Origin: Candidatus Manganitrophus noduliformans
Lineage (GTDB): Bacteria > Nitrospirota > Nitrospiria > SBBL01 > Manganitrophaceae
Assembly (NCBI RefSeq): GCF_012184425.1
Contig: NZ_VTOW01000002.1
Location: forward strand, 806,001 to 870,000
DNA length: 64,000 bases
Reading direction: 5' to 3'
How positions within the stretch are numbered: the stretch's first letter is position 1; every line of letters starts with the position of its first letter. The translations under genes and the position numbers were made by a program. Positions 28,358 to 38,436 of the stretch are shown here, piece by piece. The notes beneath the pieces were generated by a model. The model saw only the letters and a program-made list of their open reading frames with translations, ran no database searches and was not told the DNA's origin.

Positions 28358-28495
28358 GCGCTCCGGAAGACAACGCAATTCGAGGATCAGACAGTGCGTC
28401 GAGCATAAGATCACACCGCTGATTTCTATGTTAGCATTGATTTCCAGGAGGGATCAATTCCAGGCGGTGAAGAGAGCCGACGCGCCGGCCGGCAA

Positions 28496-28529
28496 TTTGT
28501 AGGGGCGTATTGCAATACGCCCCTACAAA
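28496..28529. repeat. GTAGGGGCG palindromic repeat, copy 2 (perfect 34-bp palindrome)
   Basis: TTTGTAGGGGCGTATTG is the exact reverse complement of CAATACGCCCCTACAAA. Downstream (28531-28558) is a GAACCGTACGACGCGCG... segment that recurs near 54106 close to another palindrome. Confidence 0.9.
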
Positions 28530-28567
28530 CGAACCGTACGACGCGCGATGCGTGTTCATTAACGTCT

Positions 28568-28613
28568 AAAAAGGACTGTGGGGAACCGCTCCCCCAAATG
28601 GGACAGGGTCCTT
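28568..28613 (-). terminator. putative terminator of the FKBP gene
   Basis: On the minus strand AAGGA pairs with TCCTT, inside which CTGT/ACAG and GGGG/CCCC pair around a GAGCGGTT loop, followed by a short T run (28572-28568). The stem begins within the FKBP stop codon. The bulges make it moderate rather than strong. Confidence 0.6.
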
Positions 28614-29319
28614 ATTGGGGTGTTTTTCCCGCTTCCTGAATCGAGAGCAGCTCCACTTCGAAAACCAGCGTCGCGTTCGGTCCGATCGCCTGTCCGGCGC
28701 CCCGGGGGCCGTAAGCCAGAGAGGGCGGAACCACGAGCTGCCACTTCGAGCCGACCGGCATCAGCTGCAGCGCCTCGGTCCAGCCGGGGATCACCCCTTC
28801 CACAGGAAAGCTGGCCGGCTCCCCCCGCTTGTGCGAACTGTCGAATTCGGTCCCGTCAATGAGCGTCCCTCGATAGTGGGTGACGACGGTATCGGTGGCC
28901 TTGGGCTTCTTCCCTTTACCGGCGGTGATGATTTTATACTGTAGGCCGCTGGGGAGGGTCACGACCCCCTTTTTCTTCTTGTTCTCATCAAGGAAGGCAT
29001 TCCCTTCTTTCAGGTTTTTATCCCCGATCACTTTGGCCTGCGCGGCGACCTTGGCCTGCATCTCCTGTTGAAACGTCGCCATGACCTTCTGGATTTCCTC
29101 GTCGGTCAGAAGATGTTTTCCGGAGATCGCATCCTGGATCCCTTGCGACAGTAGTTTCGGGTCGACCTCGATCGACTGGTCTTTTAAATTTCTCCCGATA
29201 TCCAATCCGATGCTGTAGCTGACTTTGTCCTTTTGCGTTTTAAGATCCGATTTATCGGCCGCGTAAACCGAAACGGACAGAAGTCCCAAACCAACAATTG
29301 CGATGAATCGAAATAACAT
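28612..29319 (-). CDS. FKBP-type peptidyl-prolyl cis-trans isomerase, periplasmic (FkpA/Mip type)
   Basis: 235 residues with a signal peptide (MLFRFIAIVGLGLLSVSVYA). The N-terminal helical dimerisation domain (~25-125; VSYSIGLDIGRNLKDQSIEV) is followed by the FKBP domain (~130-230) with VVTHYRGTLIDGTEFDSS, EGVIPGWTEALQLMPVGSKW and PPSLAYG, all conserved active-site positions. It helps fold periplasmic and outer-membrane proteins. A terminator follows its stop codon. Confidence 0.94.
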   Translation of the reverse strand: MLFRFIAIVGLGLLSVSVYAADKSDLKTQKDKVSYSIGLDIGRNLKDQSIEVDPKLLSQGIQDAISGKHLLTDEEIQKVMATFQQEMQAKVAAQAKVIGDKNLKEGNAFLDENKKKKGVVTLPSGLQYKIITAGKGKKPKATDTVVTHYRGTLIDGTEFDSSHKRGEPASFPVEGVIPGWTEALQLMPVGSKWQLVVPPSLAYGPRGAGQAIGPNATLVFEVELLSIQEAGKTPQ

Positions 29320-29483
29320 ACATGCTCCTTTGATTTGAATATTGATCCAGATGGCTTTTCTTTCATTTGCGCTCGTCTCGTAACCTGCGAATGCCGCATA
29401 AGCCGTAGGAATCCGGGCGCAACGGCCACTAGAATACTCCTTCTGAGCAAAATTAACAATTCCCTCCCTCCCCCAGTCCGGCC

Positions 29484-30737
29484 TCAGTCCGGCAGCTCCT
29501 CCAGCCGCCGTTGGAGAAACCGCCGTTCCGGCGCTTGCTGCGTGAGGGCAAGGGCCCGTTCGTAGGAGGCGCGGGCTTCCGCTGTTCTCCCCAGCCGGCG
29601 GCAGAGATCGGCCCGCGCCGAGTGCGCCAGGTGGTACTCCTCCAGCTCGCCGCTTGCAAGGAGAGCGTCGATGAGGGGGAGACCGGCCGATGGGCCGTCG
29701 CGCATCGCCACCGCCACGGCGCGGTTCAATTCAATGACGGGGGAGGGCTCCACCCGCAGCAGCACGTCGTAGAGTCCGACGATCTGGGCCCAGTCGGTCG
29801 CCGCGGCGGTCGGCGCCTCGGCATGGACCGCCGCGATCGCCGCTTGGAGCGTGTAGGGGCCGAACCGGCGCGACGACAAAGCCCGCTCCACCAGCGCCGT
29901 CCCCTCCGCAATTTGATCCCGGTTCCAGAGCGAGCGGTCCTGGTTGTCGAGCAGGATCAAATCCCCTTCCGGGGAGGCGCGCGCGGCGCGCCGCGACTCC
30001 TGAATCAGCATCAGCGCCAGAAGCCCCATCGCCTCGGGCTCCGGGAGCAACTCGATGAGAAGCCTTCCGAGCCGGATCGCCTCGCCCGAAAGGTCGTGCC
30101 GCGTCAGCGAACTCCCCGACGACGCCGAATAACCCTCGTTGAAAACCAGGTAGATGACACGAAGGACGGCGTCGAGCCGGTCGGGAAGATCGCGCTGCGA
30201 CGGCACCTGATAGGGAATGCCCGCGTCCTTGATTTTTCTCTTGGCGCGGACGATCCGCTGCGCCACCGTGGGAGGGGCGGTCAGGAAGGCGCGGGCGATC
30301 TCTTCCGTCGTGAGGCCGCAGACTTCGCGCAGCGTCAGCGCGATCCGGGCGTCGGGGGGGAGGGCGGGATGGCTGCAGGTGAAAATCAGGCGGAGGCGGT
30401 CGTCCTCGACACTTTCATTTTCCCATCCGGACGTATCACTCGCGGCGGCCTCCAGACTCCTGGCGATCTCCCCGAGCGACGCGTCGAACCGGGCGCGCCG
30501 GCGCATCCCGTCGATCGCTTTGAAGCGGCCGGTCGAAATGAGCCACGCCGCCGGATTCTTCGGCACCCCCTCCCGCCGCCACTGCTCCACCGCCGCGGCG
30601 AAGGCGTCGTGCATCGCCTCCTCGGCCAAATCAAAATCGCCGAGCAGCCGGATCAGGGTGGCGAGGACGCGACGCGAGTCGGAGCGGTAAACACCGTCCA
30701 CGACCTCGCGCATTTTTTCGGCTGCATCTTGACCCAT
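29484..30737 (-). CDS. ECF sigma factor, ECF42 (DGPF-associated) type with C-terminal TPR-like extension
   Basis: 417 residues from ATG 30737. Region sigma2 (~10-75, LIRLLGDFDLAEEAMHDAFA, then WLISTGRFKAIDGMRRR) and sigma4 (~115-175, LREVCGLTTEEIARAFLTAP and VAQRIVRAKRKIKDAG) are followed by a ~230-residue helical extension (LFNEGYSASSG-like LVFNEGYSAS; AIAAVHAEAPTAAATDW; LNRAVAVAMRDGP). This layout is the ECF42 family, which lacks a classical anti-sigma factor and sits with DGPF/YciI genes. The gene is the last of a minus-strand run: adaptor, RND pump, sigma factor. A cluster of DGPF/YciI genes lies upstream at 35.7-38 kb. The open frame continues to 32390, but only as a shadow of the RND gene. 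Confidence 0.92.
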   Translation of the reverse strand: MGQDAAEKMREVVDGVYRSDSRRVLATLIRLLGDFDLAEEAMHDAFAAAVEQWRREGVPKNPAAWLISTGRFKAIDGMRRRARFDASLGEIARSLEAAASDTSGWENESVEDDRLRLIFTCSHPALPPDARIALTLREVCGLTTEEIARAFLTAPPTVAQRIVRAKRKIKDAGIPYQVPSQRDLPDRLDAVLRVIYLVFNEGYSASSGSSLTRHDLSGEAIRLGRLLIELLPEPEAMGLLALMLIQESRRAARASPEGDLILLDNQDRSLWNRDQIAEGTALVERALSSRRFGPYTLQAAIAAVHAEAPTAAATDWAQIVGLYDVLLRVEPSPVIELNRAVAVAMRDGPSAGLPLIDALLASGELEEYHLAHSARADLCRRLGRTAEARASYERALALTQQAPERRFLQRRLEELPD

Positions 30738-30757
30738 CCGAATTCCAAACAGGCCGG

Positions 30758-33700
30758 TCAGGACTTCGCCGCCTCGACCGGTTGGAGCTGCGGCGCGGCG
30801 GTGCGGTCGGCGTGGTGCTGCTTGGCCATGAGCATGTAGAGCGACGGCACCACAAAGAGGGTAAAGATCGTCCCGATGATCATCCCGCCGACCAGGACCA
30901 GGCCGATCGAATTGCGCGCCGCGGCGCCCGGACCGCTGACCAGCGTCAGCGGGAAGTGGCCCGCGACGGTCGCCACAGAGGTCATCAAGACGGGGCGCAA
31001 ACGGGTCATCGCCGCTTCTTTGACGGCCGACCGCTTGTCGGCGCCCCCCTCTTGAAGCTTGTTGGCGAATTCGACGATGAGGATGCCGTTTTTCGCGACC
31101 AGCCCGACGAGGGTCACCAGCCCGACCTGCGCGTAGATGTTCATCGTCGTGGTCCAACCGTCGGTCCAGTAGGGAAGATCGGGGTTGGGCATCTTCAGGA
31201 CGGTGAAGATCAAGGCACCGAACATCGCCAACGGCACCGACCCCAGAAGGATCACCAGCGGGTCGCGGAACGAGTTGAACTGCACCGCGAGCACCAGGAA
31301 GATCAACAGAATCGCAAGCCCCAGCGCCGGAAGGAACTTCCCCCCTTCGGTGCGAAGCTGCCGCGATTCGCCGGTGTAGTTGATCGTGTAGCCGGGGGGC
31401 AAAATGTCGCGCGCGGCATTTTCGAGAACCTTCAGCCCTTCGTCGAGCTGGGCGGTCATTCCGGAAAGCTTGATCGCATTCATCTGCTGGAAGCGGTTGA
31501 GCGAGCGCGGCACCGTGCCGTCGCGGATGGTCGCGATCGCACTCAGCGGAATGAGCCGGTTGTCCGGTCCGGTGACGTAGATCTCTTTCAGTTGATCGGG
31601 ATTGAGCCGATCGGCGCGCGCGATCTGCGGGATCACCTTGTAGGCGCGTCCCGCGATGTTGAAGCGGTTGACGTAGTCGCCGCCGAGCGCGGCGCCCAGA
31701 TCGGCGCCGATCTGGGCGTTGTTCAGACCGAGGGTTGCGACCTTCTGATGGTCGATGACGATTTCCGACTGCGGCTGGTCGTATTTCAGGTCGATCTCCG
31801 GCGGGAAATAAAAAAGGCCGCTTTCCATCGCTTTCATCTGAAGCTGCTGCGCCGCTTCCAGCATCCGCTCCGGCTCGGCGGTCGACGCGATGATGAATTC
31901 GACCGGGAAGTTGCCGCCGCCCGGCAGCGCGGGGGGTCTGGCGGCGAAGATCTGCAAGCCGGGAATGGCGGAGAGCTTGCCCTGCACCTCGGGCAAGATC
32001 TGCGAGATGGAACGGTCGCGCTGCTCCCACGGTTTCACGACCATCCCGCTGAATCCGCCGACCCCCATCGCCGCGGCGAATGGATCCGAGGGGGACATGA
32101 GGATCTGAAAGGTCACATCCCGCTCGGGTGTCGAGAGAAACGCCTGCTCGGCGGCGCGGCCGAAATGGCTCTTCTGGTCCGCCGACGCGTTCGCCGCGTT
32201 GTTGATGATGCCGAACATGAACCCTTGGTCCTCCACCGGCGCCAGCTCTTTGGGTGAAAAGAGATACATCGGGACCGTCAGCAGGCTGAGGGCGATCCAG
32301 ACGGTATAGACCGCGGGACGGGCCCGCATCGTCCGGTCGAGCATCCCCCCATACCCCCGGCGCAGACGGTCGAAGCGGTGATTGATCCAACCGGTGAAGC
32401 CGCGCTCTTCCCGGTCCGCGCCGCGGAGCAGTTTCGCCGCCATCATCGGCGAGAGCGTCAGCGCCACGATGCCGGAAATCGTGACGGCCCCCGCGAGGGT
32501 GAGGGCGAATTCGCGAAAGAGCGCCCCCGTGAAGCCCCCTTGCAGGCCGATCGGCGTGTAGACCGCGGCGAGGGTGATCGTCATCGCGATGACCGGCCCG
32601 ATCAGCTCGCGCGCTCCGACCAGCGCGGCCTGGAACGGCGTGCGCCCTTCGCGCAGGTGGCGTTCGACATTCTCGACCACGACGATGGCGTCGTCCACGA
32701 CCAGACCGACCGAGAGCACGATGGCGAGCAGCGTGAGCAGGTTGAGGGTGAAACCGAACGACTGCATCAAAAAGACGCTGCCGATGAGAGAGACAGGGAT
32801 GGCGAGGATCGGCACCAGCGCCGATCGGAAGGAGCCGAGAAAGAAAAAGATGACGATGACGACAATGATCAACGTTTCGGTGAGGGTGCCGAGCACTTCG
32901 TGAATGGCGCTGCTGATGTACTCGGAAGCATCATAGGCGACCCTCCCCTCGAGACCCTTCGGCAGATCGCGCCGGATCGAATCGAGCTCCGCGCGGACCC
33001 GTTCGACCACGTCGATGGTGTTGGCGTGGGGGAGCGGAAAAATTCCGATGAAAATCGCCGTCTGTCCGGTAAAACGGACCTCCGTGTCGTAATCCTCCGC
33101 CCCCATCTCGACGTCGGCGACGTCCTGCAGCCGGACGATGGTATCGTTCTCCCGCCGGATGACAAGCTGTTTGAACTCCTCCACCGTGTGCAAGTCGGTG
33201 TTGGCGGTCAGATTGACCTGAACGAACGCCCCTTTCGTATTGCCGACGGCGGCGAGAAAGTTATTCGCCGCCAGCGCCGCGCGGATCTGCGCGGGGCTGA
33301 CGTTCAACGCCGCCATCTGCGCCGGCTTCAACCAGACCCGCATCGCGAAGGTGCGGGCGCCGATGATCTCCGCCTTCTGCACCCCCGCGAGCGAAGCGAG
33401 GCGGGGCTGAATCGCGCGCACCACGTAATCGGTGATTTCACTCTGCGTCAGGGCGTCGGACGCAAAGCTCAGGTAAGCGGCCGCGAACTCCGAGTCGGCC
33501 GACTGCACGCTGATGGAAGGGACCTCCGCCTCCGCGGGCAGCTCGTTTCGAACCTGATTCACCTTCGCGGTGATGTCGGCGAGCGCGCGGGTGGCGTCGT
33601 AGTTGAGCTTCAGGCGCGCGGTGACGAGGGAGAGGCCGAGGAGACTTTTCGATTCGACGTAATCGATGCCGTCCGCGGAGGCGATCGAACGCTCGATCGC

Positions 33701-33898
33701 GGTGGTGATGAAACCGCGCACCACGTCGGCGCTGGCGCCGATGTAGACGGTCGCGATCGTCACCGAGGCGTTTTCGCTTCGGGGATATTGGCGGACGCTC
33801 AGCGTCTTCCAGGCTTGCAGGCCGGCGATGATGATCAGCACATTGACCACGATCGCGAGGACCGGACGGCGCACGAATATGTCGGTAAAGCCTTTCAT
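30758..33898 (-). CDS. RND efflux transporter permease (AcrB/MexB family)
   Basis: 1046 residues, full length for a hydrophobe/amphiphile RND pump. N-terminus IFVRRPVLAIVVNVLIIIAG; TM4 carries the proton-relay pair in GLVVDDAIVVVENVERHLRE; a second large periplasmic loop lies between TM7 and TM8; the C-terminal half repeats the fold (LVGLVAKNGILIVEFANKLQ). It exports drugs, solvents or metals in antiport with protons, as a trimer with an adaptor and an outer-membrane channel. The adaptor is the next gene upstream; no outer-membrane factor is present nearby. Confidence 0.95.
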   Translation of the reverse strand: MKGFTDIFVRRPVLAIVVNVLIIIAGLQAWKTLSVRQYPRSENASVTIATVYIGASADVVRGFITTAIERSIASADGIDYVESKSLLGLSLVTARLKLNYDATRALADITAKVNQVRNELPAEAEVPSISVQSADSEFAAAYLSFASDALTQSEITDYVVRAIQPRLASLAGVQKAEIIGARTFAMRVWLKPAQMAALNVSPAQIRAALAANNFLAAVGNTKGAFVQVNLTANTDLHTVEEFKQLVIRRENDTIVRLQDVADVEMGAEDYDTEVRFTGQTAIFIGIFPLPHANTIDVVERVRAELDSIRRDLPKGLEGRVAYDASEYISSAIHEVLGTLTETLIIVVIVIFFFLGSFRSALVPILAIPVSLIGSVFLMQSFGFTLNLLTLLAIVLSVGLVVDDAIVVVENVERHLREGRTPFQAALVGARELIGPVIAMTITLAAVYTPIGLQGGFTGALFREFALTLAGAVTISGIVALTLSPMMAAKLLRGADREERGFTGWINHRFDRLRRGYGGMLDRTMRARPAVYTVWIALSLLTVPMYLFSPKELAPVEDQGFMFGIINNAANASADQKSHFGRAAEQAFLSTPERDVTFQILMSPSDPFAAAMGVGGFSGMVVKPWEQRDRSISQILPEVQGKLSAIPGLQIFAARPPALPGGGNFPVEFIIASTAEPERMLEAAQQLQMKAMESGLFYFPPEIDLKYDQPQSEIVIDHQKVATLGLNNAQIGADLGAALGGDYVNRFNIAGRAYKVIPQIARADRLNPDQLKEIYVTGPDNRLIPLSAIATIRDGTVPRSLNRFQQMNAIKLSGMTAQLDEGLKVLENAARDILPPGYTINYTGESRQLRTEGGKFLPALGLAILLIFLVLAVQFNSFRDPLVILLGSVPLAMFGALIFTVLKMPNPDLPYWTDGWTTTMNIYAQVGLVTLVGLVAKNGILIVEFANKLQEGGADKRSAVKEAAMTRLRPVLMTSVATVAGHFPLTLVSGPGAAARNSIGLVLVGGMIIGTIFTLFVVPSLYMLMAKQHHADRTAAPQLQPVEAAKS

Positions 33899-33993
33899 AA
33901 ATCGATCCTCTTAAAAGCGGGGGCCGGGGTCCGGTTAAAAGATTTTATTTAAAAATTCTTCTCCCCGACCCCTGACACCCGGCCCCTGTTTTC

Positions 33994-35175
33994 TTAGCTG
34001 TTGCCGGGCTTCGGCGTTAATGTGAAGGGGGGGGCCAGCGTGTTGTCGATGACCACCGACATCTCCGGCCGAAGCTTGAAAACGCCGGTGGAGACGACTC
34101 TCTCCCCGATTTTAAGGCCTTCGGTCACGACGACAAAGTCCCCCTGTCGCGCGCCGAGGCGGACGAACTGCTGCCGGACAACGAGCGGTTTCGCTCCGCC
34201 CGGACCGGCCGGTCCCTCTTCAATGACAAAAACAGAGTCGCCGAAGGGGGCGTGAACCACCGCGGTCGCCGGAATGAGCAACACCTTTTCCGACCGCGCG
34301 AGAATCATCTCGACCGAGACGAACATGCCGGGCCGCAGCCGGCCGCCGGGATTGGCCAAGGTCGCCTGGACCCGGACGTTTCTCGTCGCGGGATCGATCT
34401 CCGGATTCACCGCCGTGATCTTCCCCTCGAACGATTGCTTTGGAAAAGCGTCGGACGCCACGGCCACCTTCAGCCCTTCGACCGGATCGCCCAATTGCTG
34501 CTGCGGCAATGAGAAATCGACGTAAACCGGATCGAGGGAGTGAAGCGACACCACCGGGCTCCCTCTCTGGAGAAGCTGCCCGACGCTGATCTGCCGGATG
34601 CCGAGCTTGCCGGAGAAGGGGGCGCGCACCGTCTTCTTGGCGATGACCGCCCGGATGTTGTCCAATTGGGCGTCGGCCTGCTTGAGGTTGCTGGCGGCCG
34701 AATCATACTGGGCCTGGGAGATGCCGTCGCTTTCGATAAGCTCTTTGGCCCGTTTGAAGGAGAGGCGCGCCAATTCGGCCGCCGCTTCGGCCGCGCGCAG
34801 CTGCGTCTGCTCGATGTCGACGTCGAGCTGCGCCAGCAGATCACCGGCCTTCACCACGGCGCCCGCATCGAACGCGATCTCGCGGACGATCCCCTCGGAT
34901 TCGGCCCGGACCACCGTTCCCTGAACGGCCATGACCGTTCCGACCGAGGAAACGCGCGGCTGCCACTGCTCTTCGCGCACCTCGGCGGCATTAACCCGCT
35001 CGGGCGGCATGACCTGTTGGGCGGCGGCGTCCCCCATCGCCTTGAACTGGAGCGCCTTCATCCCGATGAGGCCGCCGGCAATCGGCAGGACGATCACCAC
35101 GCCGAGAATGACCCAACGGAGTCGCTTCAGGCTCCCTTCCCGGTCGCCGCGCCCTCCGTTTCTTGTATCCATCAT
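33994..35175 (-). CDS. RND efflux periplasmic adaptor (membrane fusion protein)
   Basis: 393 residues from ATG 35175 (AAAGGAG RBS; the open frame runs to 35244). An N-terminal membrane anchor (LKRLRWVILGVVIVLPIAGG) precedes the lipoyl half-motif (VVRAESEGIVREIAFDAGAV), an alpha-hairpin (LSFKRAKELIESDGISQAQY), and the beta-barrel and membrane-proximal domains (KITAVNPEIDPATRNVRVQA). It links the RND pump to an outer-membrane channel. The pump gene lies 95 bases downstream. Confidence 0.94.
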   Translation of the reverse strand: MMDTRNGGRGDREGSLKRLRWVILGVVIVLPIAGGLIGMKALQFKAMGDAAAQQVMPPERVNAAEVREEQWQPRVSSVGTVMAVQGTVVRAESEGIVREIAFDAGAVVKAGDLLAQLDVDIEQTQLRAAEAAAELARLSFKRAKELIESDGISQAQYDSAASNLKQADAQLDNIRAVIAKKTVRAPFSGKLGIRQISVGQLLQRGSPVVSLHSLDPVYVDFSLPQQQLGDPVEGLKVAVASDAFPKQSFEGKITAVNPEIDPATRNVRVQATLANPGGRLRPGMFVSVEMILARSEKVLLIPATAVVHAPFGDSVFVIEEGPAGPGGAKPLVVRQQFVRLGARQGDFVVVTEGLKIGERVVSTGVFKLRPEMSVVIDNTLAPPFTLTPKPGNS

Positions 35176-35336
35176 CGATGTTCTCCTTTGCTTGTTGCAC
35201 GCCGCCGCTCGCTTTCGCGGATCATGTCGGACGTTGTTTCCCACCTCATCTCATTGTTTCTACATTCTATCATCGTTCTGCGACGACCGGAATGAATATT
35301 AAATTTCATCCCAGGGGAATTCACCCTTTCGCCTTC

Positions 35337-35693
35337 TCAGAGGTCGACCAAGGCCTTAAACCCGCCGTAGGTCATCCGTTTGAAATCAAAAGGCATCGCC
35401 TTGGGGTCCATATGTAGGCGCGGGTCTTTCATCACTTTGGCGTTGACGCTGTCGCGATGCGCGCGCGATTTGTAAACGATCCACGCGAAGACCACCGTCT
35501 CACCCGGCTTCAGCTTGACCAGACGGGTGAACGGCACCCCCATCTGCACCTTCAGGTCGTCTCCGGCGCATTCCCGGTATTCCAGAGCGCCGTACTCCCG
35601 CCAGATCTTCCCCGCCTTCTGAGCGATCCGGCGGTAAGCTTGCAGGTTTTTCTTCGGGATCGGTATGACAAAACCGTCGACATACTTCGCCAT
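35337..35693 (-). CDS. DUF1428 family protein
   Basis: 118 residues, RBS AAGGAG. Matches the small ferredoxin-like DUF1428 family (YVDGFVIPIPKKNLQAYRRI at the start; VVFAWIVYKSRAHRDSVNAK; the closing MPFDFKRMTYGGFKALVDL). Function unknown. In many genomes it sits among YciI/DGPF, VOC and SRPBCC genes near ECF42 sigma factors, as here. Confidence 0.88.
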   Translation of the reverse strand: MAKYVDGFVIPIPKKNLQAYRRIAQKAGKIWREYGALEYRECAGDDLKVQMGVPFTRLVKLKPGETVVFAWIVYKSRAHRDSVNAKVMKDPRLHMDPKAMPFDFKRMTYGGFKALVDL

Positions 35694-35723
35694 ATGCGTT
35701 TCTCCTTTAATGGGTTATAGAGG

Positions 35724-36080
35724 TTATTCCGTCGGCAAGCCCGGCATCTCGATCACCGGCCGGACCTCGACCGTCCCTTTGCGCGCCATCGGAATCCGCT
35801 CGGCGATGGCGATCGCTTCGTCGAGATCCTTTGCGTCGACGAGGAAGTAGCCGCCCAGCTGTTCGCGCGTCTCGGCGAACGGCCCATCGGTCACCAGACG
35901 TTTTCCGTCGCGGACCCGGACGCTGGTCGCCATCGAGATCGGATGCAACGGATTGGCGGAGAGGTATCGCCCGTTCGATTTTAAATCGTGCGCGAGTTGC
36001 GTCGATTCCTTGTAACACGCCTCCCGCTCGGTCTCGCTCAACGTTTTTTCCTCAAGGTAAATCAGCAACATGTATTTCAT
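35724..36080 (-). CDS. YciI/DGPF-domain protein
   Basis: 118 residues. Starts with the YciI-like strand MKYMLLIYLEEKTLSETERE and carries VTDGPFAETREQLGGYFLVD, the DGPF motif that names the family. It ends in KGTVEVRPVIEM. These dimeric alpha-beta-barrel proteins have no established reaction; an Asp-His chemistry is proposed for YciI relatives. Its start overlaps the stop of the upstream VOC gene by four bases (ATGA), showing co-translation. Confidence 0.9.
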   Translation of the reverse strand: MKYMLLIYLEEKTLSETEREACYKESTQLAHDLKSNGRYLSANPLHPISMATSVRVRDGKRLVTDGPFAETREQLGGYFLVDAKDLDEAIAIAERIPMARKGTVEVRPVIEMPGLPTE

Positions 36081-36499
36081 CTCGATCCCTCGTTAGCCTG
36101 GTTGATCGCGCTCGGCTCCATGAAGAACGGCTCCCAGATGTGGCCGTCGAGATCTTGAAACCCATGCGCGTACATAAAGCCGTGGTCTTGCGGCTCCTTG
36201 TAAGTCGTTCCCCCGGCGGCGACCGCCCTGCGGACGATTTCATCGACTTTCTCCCGGCTCTCCAACGATAAAGCGAGGAGCACTTCGGTGCTTTTGGTCG
36301 CATCGCAAACCGGTTTCGGCGTAAAGCTCTTAAACTTCTCTTCGGTCAAGAGCATCACGAAGTTCTCCTCGCTCACGATCATGCAGGTCGCCGTCTCGTC
36401 GGTGAATTGGGGGTTGAAGGTGAAGCCGAGGTGGGTAAAAAAGTCAATCGACTTCTTGAGATCTTTGACCGGTAGATTCACGAAAATTTTCGTCGCCAT
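36077..36499 (-). CDS. VOC (glyoxalase/bleomycin resistance) superfamily protein
   Basis: 140 residues from ATG 36499 (AAAGGAGAG upstream; longer frame to 36682 lacks support). Paired beta-alpha-beta-beta-beta modules begin with IFVNLPVKDLKKSIDFFTHL and end with HGFQDLDGHIWEPFFM. This subgroup (PhnB/YaeR-like 'extradiol dioxygenase' relatives) often sits with YciI genes; substrate unknown. Middle gene of a four-gene unit under the ECF-like promoter at 37043-37070. Confidence 0.9.
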   Translation of the reverse strand: MATKIFVNLPVKDLKKSIDFFTHLGFTFNPQFTDETATCMIVSEENFVMLLTEEKFKSFTPKPVCDATKSTEVLLALSLESREKVDEIVRRAVAAGGTTYKEPQDHGFMYAHGFQDLDGHIWEPFFMEPSAINQANEGSR

Positions 36500-36534
36500 C
36501 TTCTCTCCTTTCGATCCCTTCTTCATCTCCCCGG

Positions 36535-36957
36535 TTACTTCTTCCGCGGAAGAACCGTCTTTATTTTCCGATGCCGCTCCACCGCCTCGCTCGGCTCGAA
36601 GTCCTCCAGCTCGAAGAACCGGCGAACCTCGATCTCCGTCTCCGCCCCTTCGCCGTGCGGGTTGGGGAAGCGCTTGGCCCATTCGACCGCCTCTTCCCGC
36701 GACTTTACATTGATGATCGTGTAGCCGGCGATCATCTCTTTTGTTTCGGTAAAGGGGCCGTCGACCACGGTCCGTTTGTTTCCGGAATATTTGATTTTGA
36801 ACCCCTTCGCGCTTGCCTGCAAGCCGGCGCCGTCGACCAGGACGCCGGCCTTCGCCAGCTCCTCGTGGTAGGTCGCCATCTCGGCGATGAGCTTCTCCTC
36901 CGGCATCACGCCGGCCTCCGAGTCTTTGCTCGCCTTGACGATGATCATGTATCGCAT
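36535..36957 (-). CDS. YciI/DGPF-domain protein
   Basis: 140 residues from ATG 36957 (AAGGAG seven bases upstream; ATG 36963 is too close to that RBS). DGPF motif in VVDGPFTETKEMIAGYTIIN; the C-terminus is extended compared with the other two copies (RRFFELEDFEPSEAVERHRK). First gene of the unit YciI, VOC, YciI, DUF1428 downstream of the promoter at 37043-37070. Confidence 0.9.
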   Translation of the reverse strand: MRYMIIVKASKDSEAGVMPEEKLIAEMATYHEELAKAGVLVDGAGLQASAKGFKIKYSGNKRTVVDGPFTETKEMIAGYTIINVKSREEAVEWAKRFPNPHGEGAETEIEVRRFFELEDFEPSEAVERHRKIKTVLPRKK

Positions 36958-37042
36958 CTTCATTCTCCTTTTGGGTTAGAGTTTGAACCCGGCTCTTGGA
37001 TGGTTCCGTCCGGAAGAAGCCTACGCTTCATGTTTCATTATC

Positions 37043-37070
37043 TAGTCGTTGGGCGGGGCCAAAATCGACA
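37043..37070 (-). promoter_or_regulatory. putative ECF sigma promoter, copy 2 (TGTCGA-N16-CGACTA)
   Basis: Minus strand: TGTCGA (37070-37065), TTTTGGCCCCGCCCAA, CGACTA (37048-37043), about 80 bases upstream of the YciI gene at 36957. It matches the second copy at 38017-38044 in both boxes, spacing and flanking TTTT..GCCCC. Proposed as the target of the ECF42-type sigma factor encoded at 29484-30737. Confidence 0.75.
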
Positions 37071-37206
37071 ATTTTCCTCTTCTAAGTTATTCAAGCTTTC
37101 CGCGAGTTTATCGATACCGTTAAAATACAGAGGCTCCGGCTCGCTGTCCAGCATAAAGATCATTCCATCCCTCAGACCGCTTCGGGACGGCTCCGCGCCG
37201 GATTGC

Positions 37207-37604
37207 TTACAGGTGCCGGGTCTCCGCCGGGGGGGAGTGGTAGTTGTCGTGCCGTCCGTCGAAGTAGATGATCGGCGCATTGACCAGCTCATCGATATCG
37301 ACGTCATCGAGGCAATAGACCCGGGCGACGTAGAACTTGCCGCCGCGTTCGGGAGCGTCTCCCCACGCGAAAGGACGGACGCCGCAATGTTTGCAGAAAA
37401 CATGGTGAATGTTGTCGGGTTGATAGTCGATGAGATCGGCTTCTCCCGCGAGCAGCCGAAGGTGCCCGGTTTCACCTCCGCCCCCCACAACCGCGTTTTG
37501 GTGCACATCTCGCAGTTGCACTTGAAGGTCCCCTCGCTCAGATCGATTTCCGCTTCGAAACGGACCGCGCCGCAGTGGCAGCTTCCGGTGTATTTCTTTT
37601 TCAT
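37207..37604 (-). pseudogene. GFA-family (glutathione-dependent formaldehyde-activating-like) gene with a single-base frameshift
   Basis: From ATG 37604 (TTGGAG RBS) the frame reads [20 protein letters not shown] and [20 protein letters not shown], the N-terminal half of a GFA zinc protein (CxC, CxxC ligands). At about 37457-37460 the family continuation moves to the next frame: [27 protein letters not shown] and DGRHDN, ending at 37207. Restoring one base gives 132 residues, the normal length. The lesion is not in a long homopolymer. It is either a real inactivating deletion or a consensus error. Next to a YciI gene and under the ECF-like promoter at 38017-38044. Confidence 0.82.
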
Positions 37605-37606
37605 TC

Positions 37607-37975
37607 TCACGCTCCAAGCAACGTGTGGTTTGATTCGCCGATCGGCCGGACTTCGACGCTCCCCAGGCGCGCCGGCGGAATTTTCGAGGCGACCTGGATC
37701 GCCTCGTTCAGGTCCCGGGCATTGATGAGGACGAACCCGCCGAGCTGTTCCTTTGTTTCGGCGAAGGGGCCGTCCATGATCGACACCCTTCCCTTCCGGA
37801 CCCGGACGGTGGTGGCGGACTGAATCGGTTCGAGGACTTGGCAGGCAATGGCATGCCCGCTCTTCTTGAGTTGCACGTCGCAGGCCAGGCACTCCTCCAT
37901 AAAGGCGTCCAATTCGCTTTTGGACATCGCTTCCAGTTTCTTTTCATCGAAATAGATCAGGCAGATATATTTCAT
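37607..37975 (-). CDS. YciI/DGPF-domain protein
   Basis: 122 residues from ATG 37975 (TTGGAG seven bases upstream). Starts [20 protein letters not shown], with [20 protein letters not shown] in the middle and SVEVRPIGE near the end. Third DGPF copy in this cluster. Two bases separate its stop from the start of the GFA gene. A proposed ECF promoter lies 42-69 bases upstream. Confidence 0.9.
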
Positions 37976-38016
37976 GGCTTGCTCCAAATTGTGACGTATC
38001 GTCTATGAACATTCAA

Positions 38017-38044
38017 TAGTCGTCGGAGGGGCTGAAAATCGACA
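38017..38044 (-). promoter_or_regulatory. putative ECF sigma promoter, copy 1 (TGTCGA-N16-CGACTA)
   Basis: Minus strand: TGTCGA (38044-38039), TTTTCAGCCCCTCCGA, CGACTA (38022-38017). Transcription would begin near 38010, ahead of the YciI gene at 37975. Same boxes and spacing as 37043-37070. Confidence 0.75.
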
Positions 38045-38116
38045 AATGGGCTATGTGTTGAGGGATTTTTAAATGGATCATCGAAAAGCTGGGGACTGTC
38101 AGGTCGGTTCGGTCTG

Positions 38117-38195
38117 GTAGGGGCGGCCCTCTGTGGCCGCCCGCATTGATTGAATCTGGATGAAGACAAGGGCAGGCACGGAGGCCTGCCCCTAC
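38117..38195. repeat. composite GTAGGGGC...GCCCCTAC repeat with two inner hairpins
   Basis: GTAGGGG at 38117 and CCCCTAC at 38189-38195 flank two hairpins: GGGCGGCC/GGCCGCCC and GGGCAGGC/GCCTGCCC. It has the same build as the element after the E2 gene at 57782. Lies in the gap between the DGPF cluster and the YgiT-like gene. Confidence 0.75.
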
Positions 38196-38214
38196 AAAGC
38201 CAAGGGGAACAGAT

Positions 38215-38436
38215 TTATAGTGTCACGACTTCCACTTCGATACGCTCCTTTACCTCATGTGAGGTTTCAAGAAGCCGATCGATTTCATCCAGGGTCTTTG
38301 CGTGAAAGTATCGCTCTCCGCATTCGGAGCAGACCTCTGCTTCCACATTTTCAACGATATACAATCTGCCGTGAAGCCAGTGCTGTTTTTTTACTTTCTT
38401 CTTTGCTGTTTGTCCGCCACAAAATTCGCAAGTCAT
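38215..38436 (-). CDS. YgiT-type zinc-finger protein (antitoxin-like)
   Basis: 73 residues. Two CxxC pairs (MTCEFCGG and EVCSECGERYF) form the MqsA/YgiT N-terminal zinc finger; the C-terminal helix (KTLDEIDRLLETSHEVKERI) has no HTH, as in many small YgiT-type proteins. It overlaps the upstream DUF4258 gene by four bases (ATGA). By analogy it is the antitoxin-like partner of the DUF4258 protein. Confidence 0.88.
   Translation of the reverse strand: MTCEFCGGQTAKKKVKKQHWLHGRLYIVENVEAEVCSECGERYFHAKTLDEIDRLLETSHEVKERIEVEVVTL

Follow-up and report, generated by a model that had tools for sequence, protein, structure and literature searches.

Two TGTCGA-N16-CGACTA elements in a DGPF gene cluster of Candidatus Manganitrophus noduliformans as probable ECF42 promoters

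The window analyzed here is a stretch of 64,000 nucleotides from Candidatus Manganitrophus noduliformans (contig NZ_VTOW01000002.1, positions 806,001 to 870,000), in which two near-identical elements precede genes of the YciI/DGPF family in a minus-strand run that also encodes an ECF sigma factor. The question raised by this locus is whether these elements are promoters recognized by that sigma factor. The features of the run are given below in their order on the minus strand.

38044..38017, minus strand: candidate ECF42-type promoter 1, TGTCGATTTTCAGCCCCTCCGACGACTA; -35 TGTCGA at 38044-38039, 16-bp spacer, -10 CGACTA at 38022-38017
37607..37969, minus strand: YciI/DGPF gene (MDGPF) after promoter 1; PF03795, 2.6e-22
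37207..37605, minus strand: GFA-family gene (PF04828), frameshifted near 37450
37070..37043, minus strand: candidate ECF42-type promoter 2, TGTCGATTTTGGCCCCGCCCAACGACTA; -35 TGTCGA at 37070-37065, 16-bp spacer, -10 CGACTA at 37048-37043
36535..36963, minus strand: YciI/DGPF gene (VDGPF), first of the promoter-2 operon; PF03795, 4.4e-19
36077..36601, minus strand: glyoxalase/VOC gene, start codon unsettled, overlapping the end of the preceding gene; PF00903, 5.2e-10
35724..36080, minus strand: YciI/DGPF gene (TDGPF); PF03795, 1.4e-24
35337..35693, minus strand: DUF1428 gene; PF07237, 4.7e-41
33994..35244, minus strand: HlyD-type adaptor of an RND efflux pump; TIGR01730, 2.1e-78
30758..33898, minus strand: RND efflux permease; PF00873, 1.4e-249
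29484..30737, minus strand: ECF42 sigma factor, 417 aa, with sigma regions 2 and 4, DUF6596 and a TPR-like C-terminus

The first-pass annotation had described two copies of TGTCGA-N16-CGACTA with identical spacing, each ahead of a YciI/DGPF gene, and this description is accurate: both copies lie on the minus strand, and the genes that follow them, 37969-37607 and 36963-36535, both match PF03795. By chance, 0.04 occurrences would be expected in the window, and none of the shuffled sequences reached two. The annotation also pointed to a common spacer word, GCCCC. This word is present in both spacers, but its position is shifted by one base from one copy to the other. What the copies truly have in common is TGTCGATTTT, the 16-bp spacing and CGACTA alone, and GCCCC is probably not meaningful.

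The assignment of the sigma gene to the ECF42 type and to the same minus-strand run was also borne out. Its product matches PF04542 (1e-8) and PF08281 (6e-12) within residues 17-169 of 417 and carries no other sigma-70 regions, followed by DUF6596 at residues 187-286 (1.1e-37) and a weak TPR_2 match under the Pfam cut-off at residues 370-399 (7e-6). It is the only DUF6596 gene in the genome, and this run holds three of the five YCII genes found there, each of the three with a literal DGPF tetrapeptide. No anti-sigma domain was found among the cluster proteins scanned, and a sigma-70 promoter scan of 28400-38300 returned 4 sites against 1.8 expected, none of them compelling. The arrangement recurs elsewhere, as a YCII gene lies near the ECF42 gene in 74 of 80 named relatives. 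The nearest named ECF42 locus belongs to a Candidatus Manganitrophaceae bacterium (L095; 88% sigma identity). The DUF6596 match is split between frames in genome G003, and no sigma match above the filter was found at locus L050.

Some parts of the cluster vary between genomes. The frameshifted gene 37207-37605 is likely a decaying gene, the second of the promoter-1 operon; its counterpart in G005 resembles it only in the first part of the gene. The distance between the two promoters is shorter in G003 than in the window. The HlyD-RND pair (30758-35244) is located between the DGPF genes and the sigma gene in the window and in G005, lies before the sigma position in G003 and is absent there in G001, G002 and G004; its placement is a lineage-specific gain or loss.

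A motif that is widespread with no link to the cluster, which would speak against an ECF42 regulon, did not materialize in the genome-wide scan, and the reading stands unrefuted. The strict form, TGTCGATTT-N13-CGACTA, has exactly three exact matches in the 5.17 Mb genome, i.e., the two window promoters and one unlinked site. When two mismatches were allowed, the genome gave 10 matches against 8 for the pattern read backward, which is background level. The form TGTCGA-N14-18-CGACTA has six exact matches, three of them intergenic, all with a spacer of 16 and with TTT after TGTCGA. The other three, inside a pnp-like gene (L001), an FG-GAP-like repeat gene (L002) and a SelO-like gene (L006), were discounted as chance matches in coding sequence, and a site with two mismatches at C3:213101 (L045) lacks a clear context. 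The SelO-like coding sequence carries TGTCGAT-N15-CGACTA in many genomes and is a recurrent decoy in motif scans.

The third exact copy is located as follows.

G000:C3:234684-234711: third candidate promoter, TGTCGATTTC, outside the cluster, ahead of gene 7587-6400 (minus strand) of locus L183

This site, unlinked to the sigma gene, lies 97 bp upstream of a gene for a 395-aa BNR-repeat protein, which is followed by a MoaD/ThiS-like ORF (recognized by eye, with no Pfam match), an AHSA1 gene and a PhnB/3-dmu-9_3-mt gene. It is kept within the genus (G002, G003, G004 and G005, with a spacer of 17 in G003) and also in the Nitrospira-type genome G029. Additionally, close homologues of the BNR protein (67-84% identity) adjoin ECF42 genes in many further genomes, Chloroflexota among them. 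Conservation of the site and the position of these homologues beside ECF42 elsewhere argue that the BNR-MoaD-AHSA1-PhnB operon belongs, as judged from sequence, to the ECF42 regulon.

Across genomes, the motif follows the sigma factor. Among 58 relatives, TGTCGATTT-N12-14-CGACTA gave 53 matches and the backward control none; motif and DUF6596 occurred together in 24 genomes, DUF6596 alone in 2, the motif alone in 1 and neither in 31 (Fisher p=6e-13, a value that overstates independence since the genomes are related). The sole motif-only genome is 69% complete. The two genomes with DUF6596 alone are G025, in which the sigma gene is on a 7-kb contig, and G028, which has a divergent ECF42 and, in place of the motif, sites of the form TGTCGATT...CGTCTA, which read TGTCGATT...TTCGTCTA before and after its sigma gene. 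With a looser pattern over 296 Nitrospirota, 57 of 61 ECF42-positive genomes had matches, compared with 24 of the 235 others (p=1e-36, from counts taken by hand from two tables), and the excess in ECF42-negative genomes consists of single matches, several of them in the SelO-like coding sequence. Sites near a second ECF42 in G038 and the divergent one in G028 (L189, L190) have a -10 of CGTC, not CGAC, which suggests a matched change of sigma factor and promoter.

The motif also emerged from an unsupervised test, in which all pentamer dyads with gaps of 14-20 were counted in 163 distinct regions upstream of YciI genes from 80 named ECF42 loci of many phyla; shuffles were the control, and the reversed-sequence control was ignored as it mirrors the count. 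The top dyads were TGTCG-N18-CGACT, found in 45 regions, and its shifts, and the best shuffled dyad reached 4. Within these loci, over gaps of 5-40, TGTCGA and CGACTA are separated by only 16 (22 cases) or 17 (68 cases), and sites in the YciI upstream regions face the gene 56:1. The proposed ECF42 regulon is therefore well supported, as the motif tracks ECF42 across relatives, is recovered unsupervised and has fixed spacing and orientation.

The element could instead serve a dimeric transcription factor as its operator, since the half-sites of GTCG-N18-CGAC form an inverted repeat and are spaced by about two turns of the helix. However, the element is asymmetric, with TTT after the first half and TA after the second, and faces the gene 56:1. 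Lineages with a divergent ECF42 have CGTC as the second half, which breaks the repeat, and the same TGTCG...CGTC layout is seen in those S. meliloti ECF42 promoters whose starts have been mapped (PMC6180224). Among the compact loci that were compared, and for those loci only, the sigma factor is the DNA-binding protein common to all. An operator is therefore very improbable. We consider it very probable, from sequence comparison, that the ECF42 sigma factor encoded at 29484-30737 uses the two sites as its promoters, although co-occurrence as such does not prove binding.

The length of the spacer further connects these promoters to ECF42. On a sigma tree of 79 rows, the majority spacer (16 or 17) changes 4 times, compared with 24 times on average and never fewer than 16 in 200 shuffles. 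The 16-bp spacer is found in the Manganitrophus clade, in Nitrospiraceae clades and in one acidobacterial MAG, and 17 in most others. Two Nitrospiria families (f10 and f11) have the 17-bp spacer, and their sigma factors group with betaproteobacterial ones; as they use 17 like their sigma kin, spacing goes with the sigma factor and not with the host. A contig labelled Nitrosospira (L106) has a sigma factor and spacer of Nitrospira type, and is probably a binning error or a recent transfer. The column most associated with the spacer is residue 93, in the sigma2-sigma4 linker, which is basic or N in 22 of 25 pure-16 users and acidic or Q in 38 of 50 pure-17 users, with L143 (16, E) and L098 and L141 (17, K) as misfits. 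Since about 440 columns were screened and independent events are few, this association is a lead and not a result. Spacer length might thus be a heritable property of the ECF42 lineage (16 in Manganitrophus/Nitrospiraceae, 17 in their kin), possibly set by the sigma2-sigma4 linker, a tentative proposal to which we give less than even credence.

That spacer length tracks the ECF42 tree also bears on whether another ECF sigma factor could read the sites. Further ECF sigma factors are probably present in the genome, but the motif tracks DUF6596 genes over both the 58 and the 296 genomes, and this explanation is even harder to credit than an operator. Least plausible of all is a recent duplication of a cluster segment that left the sites alike by descent and functionless: both sites do precede paralogous YciI genes, but the boxes are identical while spacer interiors and flanks differ, the third copy precedes a non-homologous gene, and relatives from other families and phyla retain the two boxes.

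If the sites are ECF42 promoters, their start sites can be predicted. In S. meliloti, the start of SMc01149, mapped by two methods, falls on a G; in this promoter, which has a spacer of 17, the distance to the T of TGTCGG is 35 nt (PMC6180224). In the named ECF42 loci, a G is conserved 34 nt (N16) or 35 nt (N17) from the first T of TGTCGA, as are TTT after TGTCGA and CC before the -10. All three sites of the genome have a G at 34, matching the mapped S. meliloti position. From the mapped start and this conserved G, transcription would be predicted to begin at the G at 38010 for promoter 1 and at 37036 for promoter 2.

We infer recognition by sigma 29484-30737, start sites, read-through and the nature of the signal in the following way. 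RNA polymerase with the ECF42 sigma factor would read TGTCGA(TTT) as -35 and CGAC(TA) as -10, 16 bp apart, and start about 9 nt past CGAC. The YciI/DGPF genes, the VOC protein and DUF1428 would be transcribed, with probable read-through into the HlyD-RND pump and the sigma factor's own gene, giving positive feedback, and the third promoter would drive the BNR-MoaD-AHSA1-PhnB operon. If the sigma factor behaves like the ECF42 proteins studied so far, its activity may be set by the protein's own C-terminal extension and not by an anti-sigma factor, with the DGPF proteins perhaps as partners acting on this extension. A YciI gene lies directly before the sigma gene in G001, G002 and G004, and L097 has site, YciI and sigma gene in that order within 0.45 kb, which supports the feedback. 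Positive feedback by read-through is likely ancestral. In the genome studied here, some 6-7 kb separate the sigma gene from the promoters upstream of it, with the RND pump in between, and autoregulation is therefore uncertain. In S. meliloti, the ECF42 factor RpoE10 fails to activate the operon upstream of its own gene (PMC6180224).

In Candidatus Manganitrophaceae and Nitrospira, a lineage for which hardly any experimental genetics exists, these results offer a firm, if sequence-based, assignment of a sigma factor to its promoters, and widen the ECF42 regulon there to the unlinked BNR-MoaD-AHSA1-PhnB operon. One promoter word is kept over many phyla with exactly two spacings allowed, and this natural 16/17 series lends itself to the question of how spacer length is measured by a two-domain sigma factor. 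A search of the available literature for ECF work on Manganitrophus or Nitrospira found nothing on point.

Streptomyces ECF42 promoters reportedly have a -35 of TGTCGA and a -10 of CGA/TC, a likeness to the sites described here. The three genomic sites, phylogenetically conserved, fit this family consensus, which also rests on the S. meliloti promoters (PMC6180224). ECF42 sigma factors with a C-terminal TPR extension, DGPF/YCII neighbours and no anti-sigma factor have been described in Streptomyces, Pseudomonas and Sinorhizobium (PMC8999054, PMC6180224). In Streptomyces venezuelae they are Sven_0747, Sven_4377 and Sven_7131 (Liu et al. 2018 J Bacteriol), which, as described in PMC8999054, resemble the present sigma factor in a TPR-rich C-terminal extension of about 200 residues, the lack of an anti-sigma factor and DGPF neighbours. 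The system described here differs in phylum, in its -10 of CGACTA and 16-bp spacer, in an operon that includes the RND pump, VOC and DUF1428 genes, and in its second, unlinked operon. Pseudomonas putida ECF-10 is of the same group and has a similar gene context; its knockout phenotype concerns sensitivity to oxidative stress and to antibiotics, and biofilm, as cited in PMC8999054 and PMC6180224. S. meliloti RpoE10, encoded like the present sigma factor downstream of a YCII gene, likewise has a small regulon of a few operons, with TSS-mapped TGTCGG-N17-CGTC promoters, in contrast to TGTCGA/CGACTA and 16 bp here (PMC6180224). The present sigma-target assignment is therefore not the first in a non-actinobacterium, and as the promoter type is known from Streptomyces and RpoE10, what is new lies in the details: the third, unlinked operon, and a 16-bp spacer in Manganitrophus and Nitrospiraceae that follows the sigma lineage.
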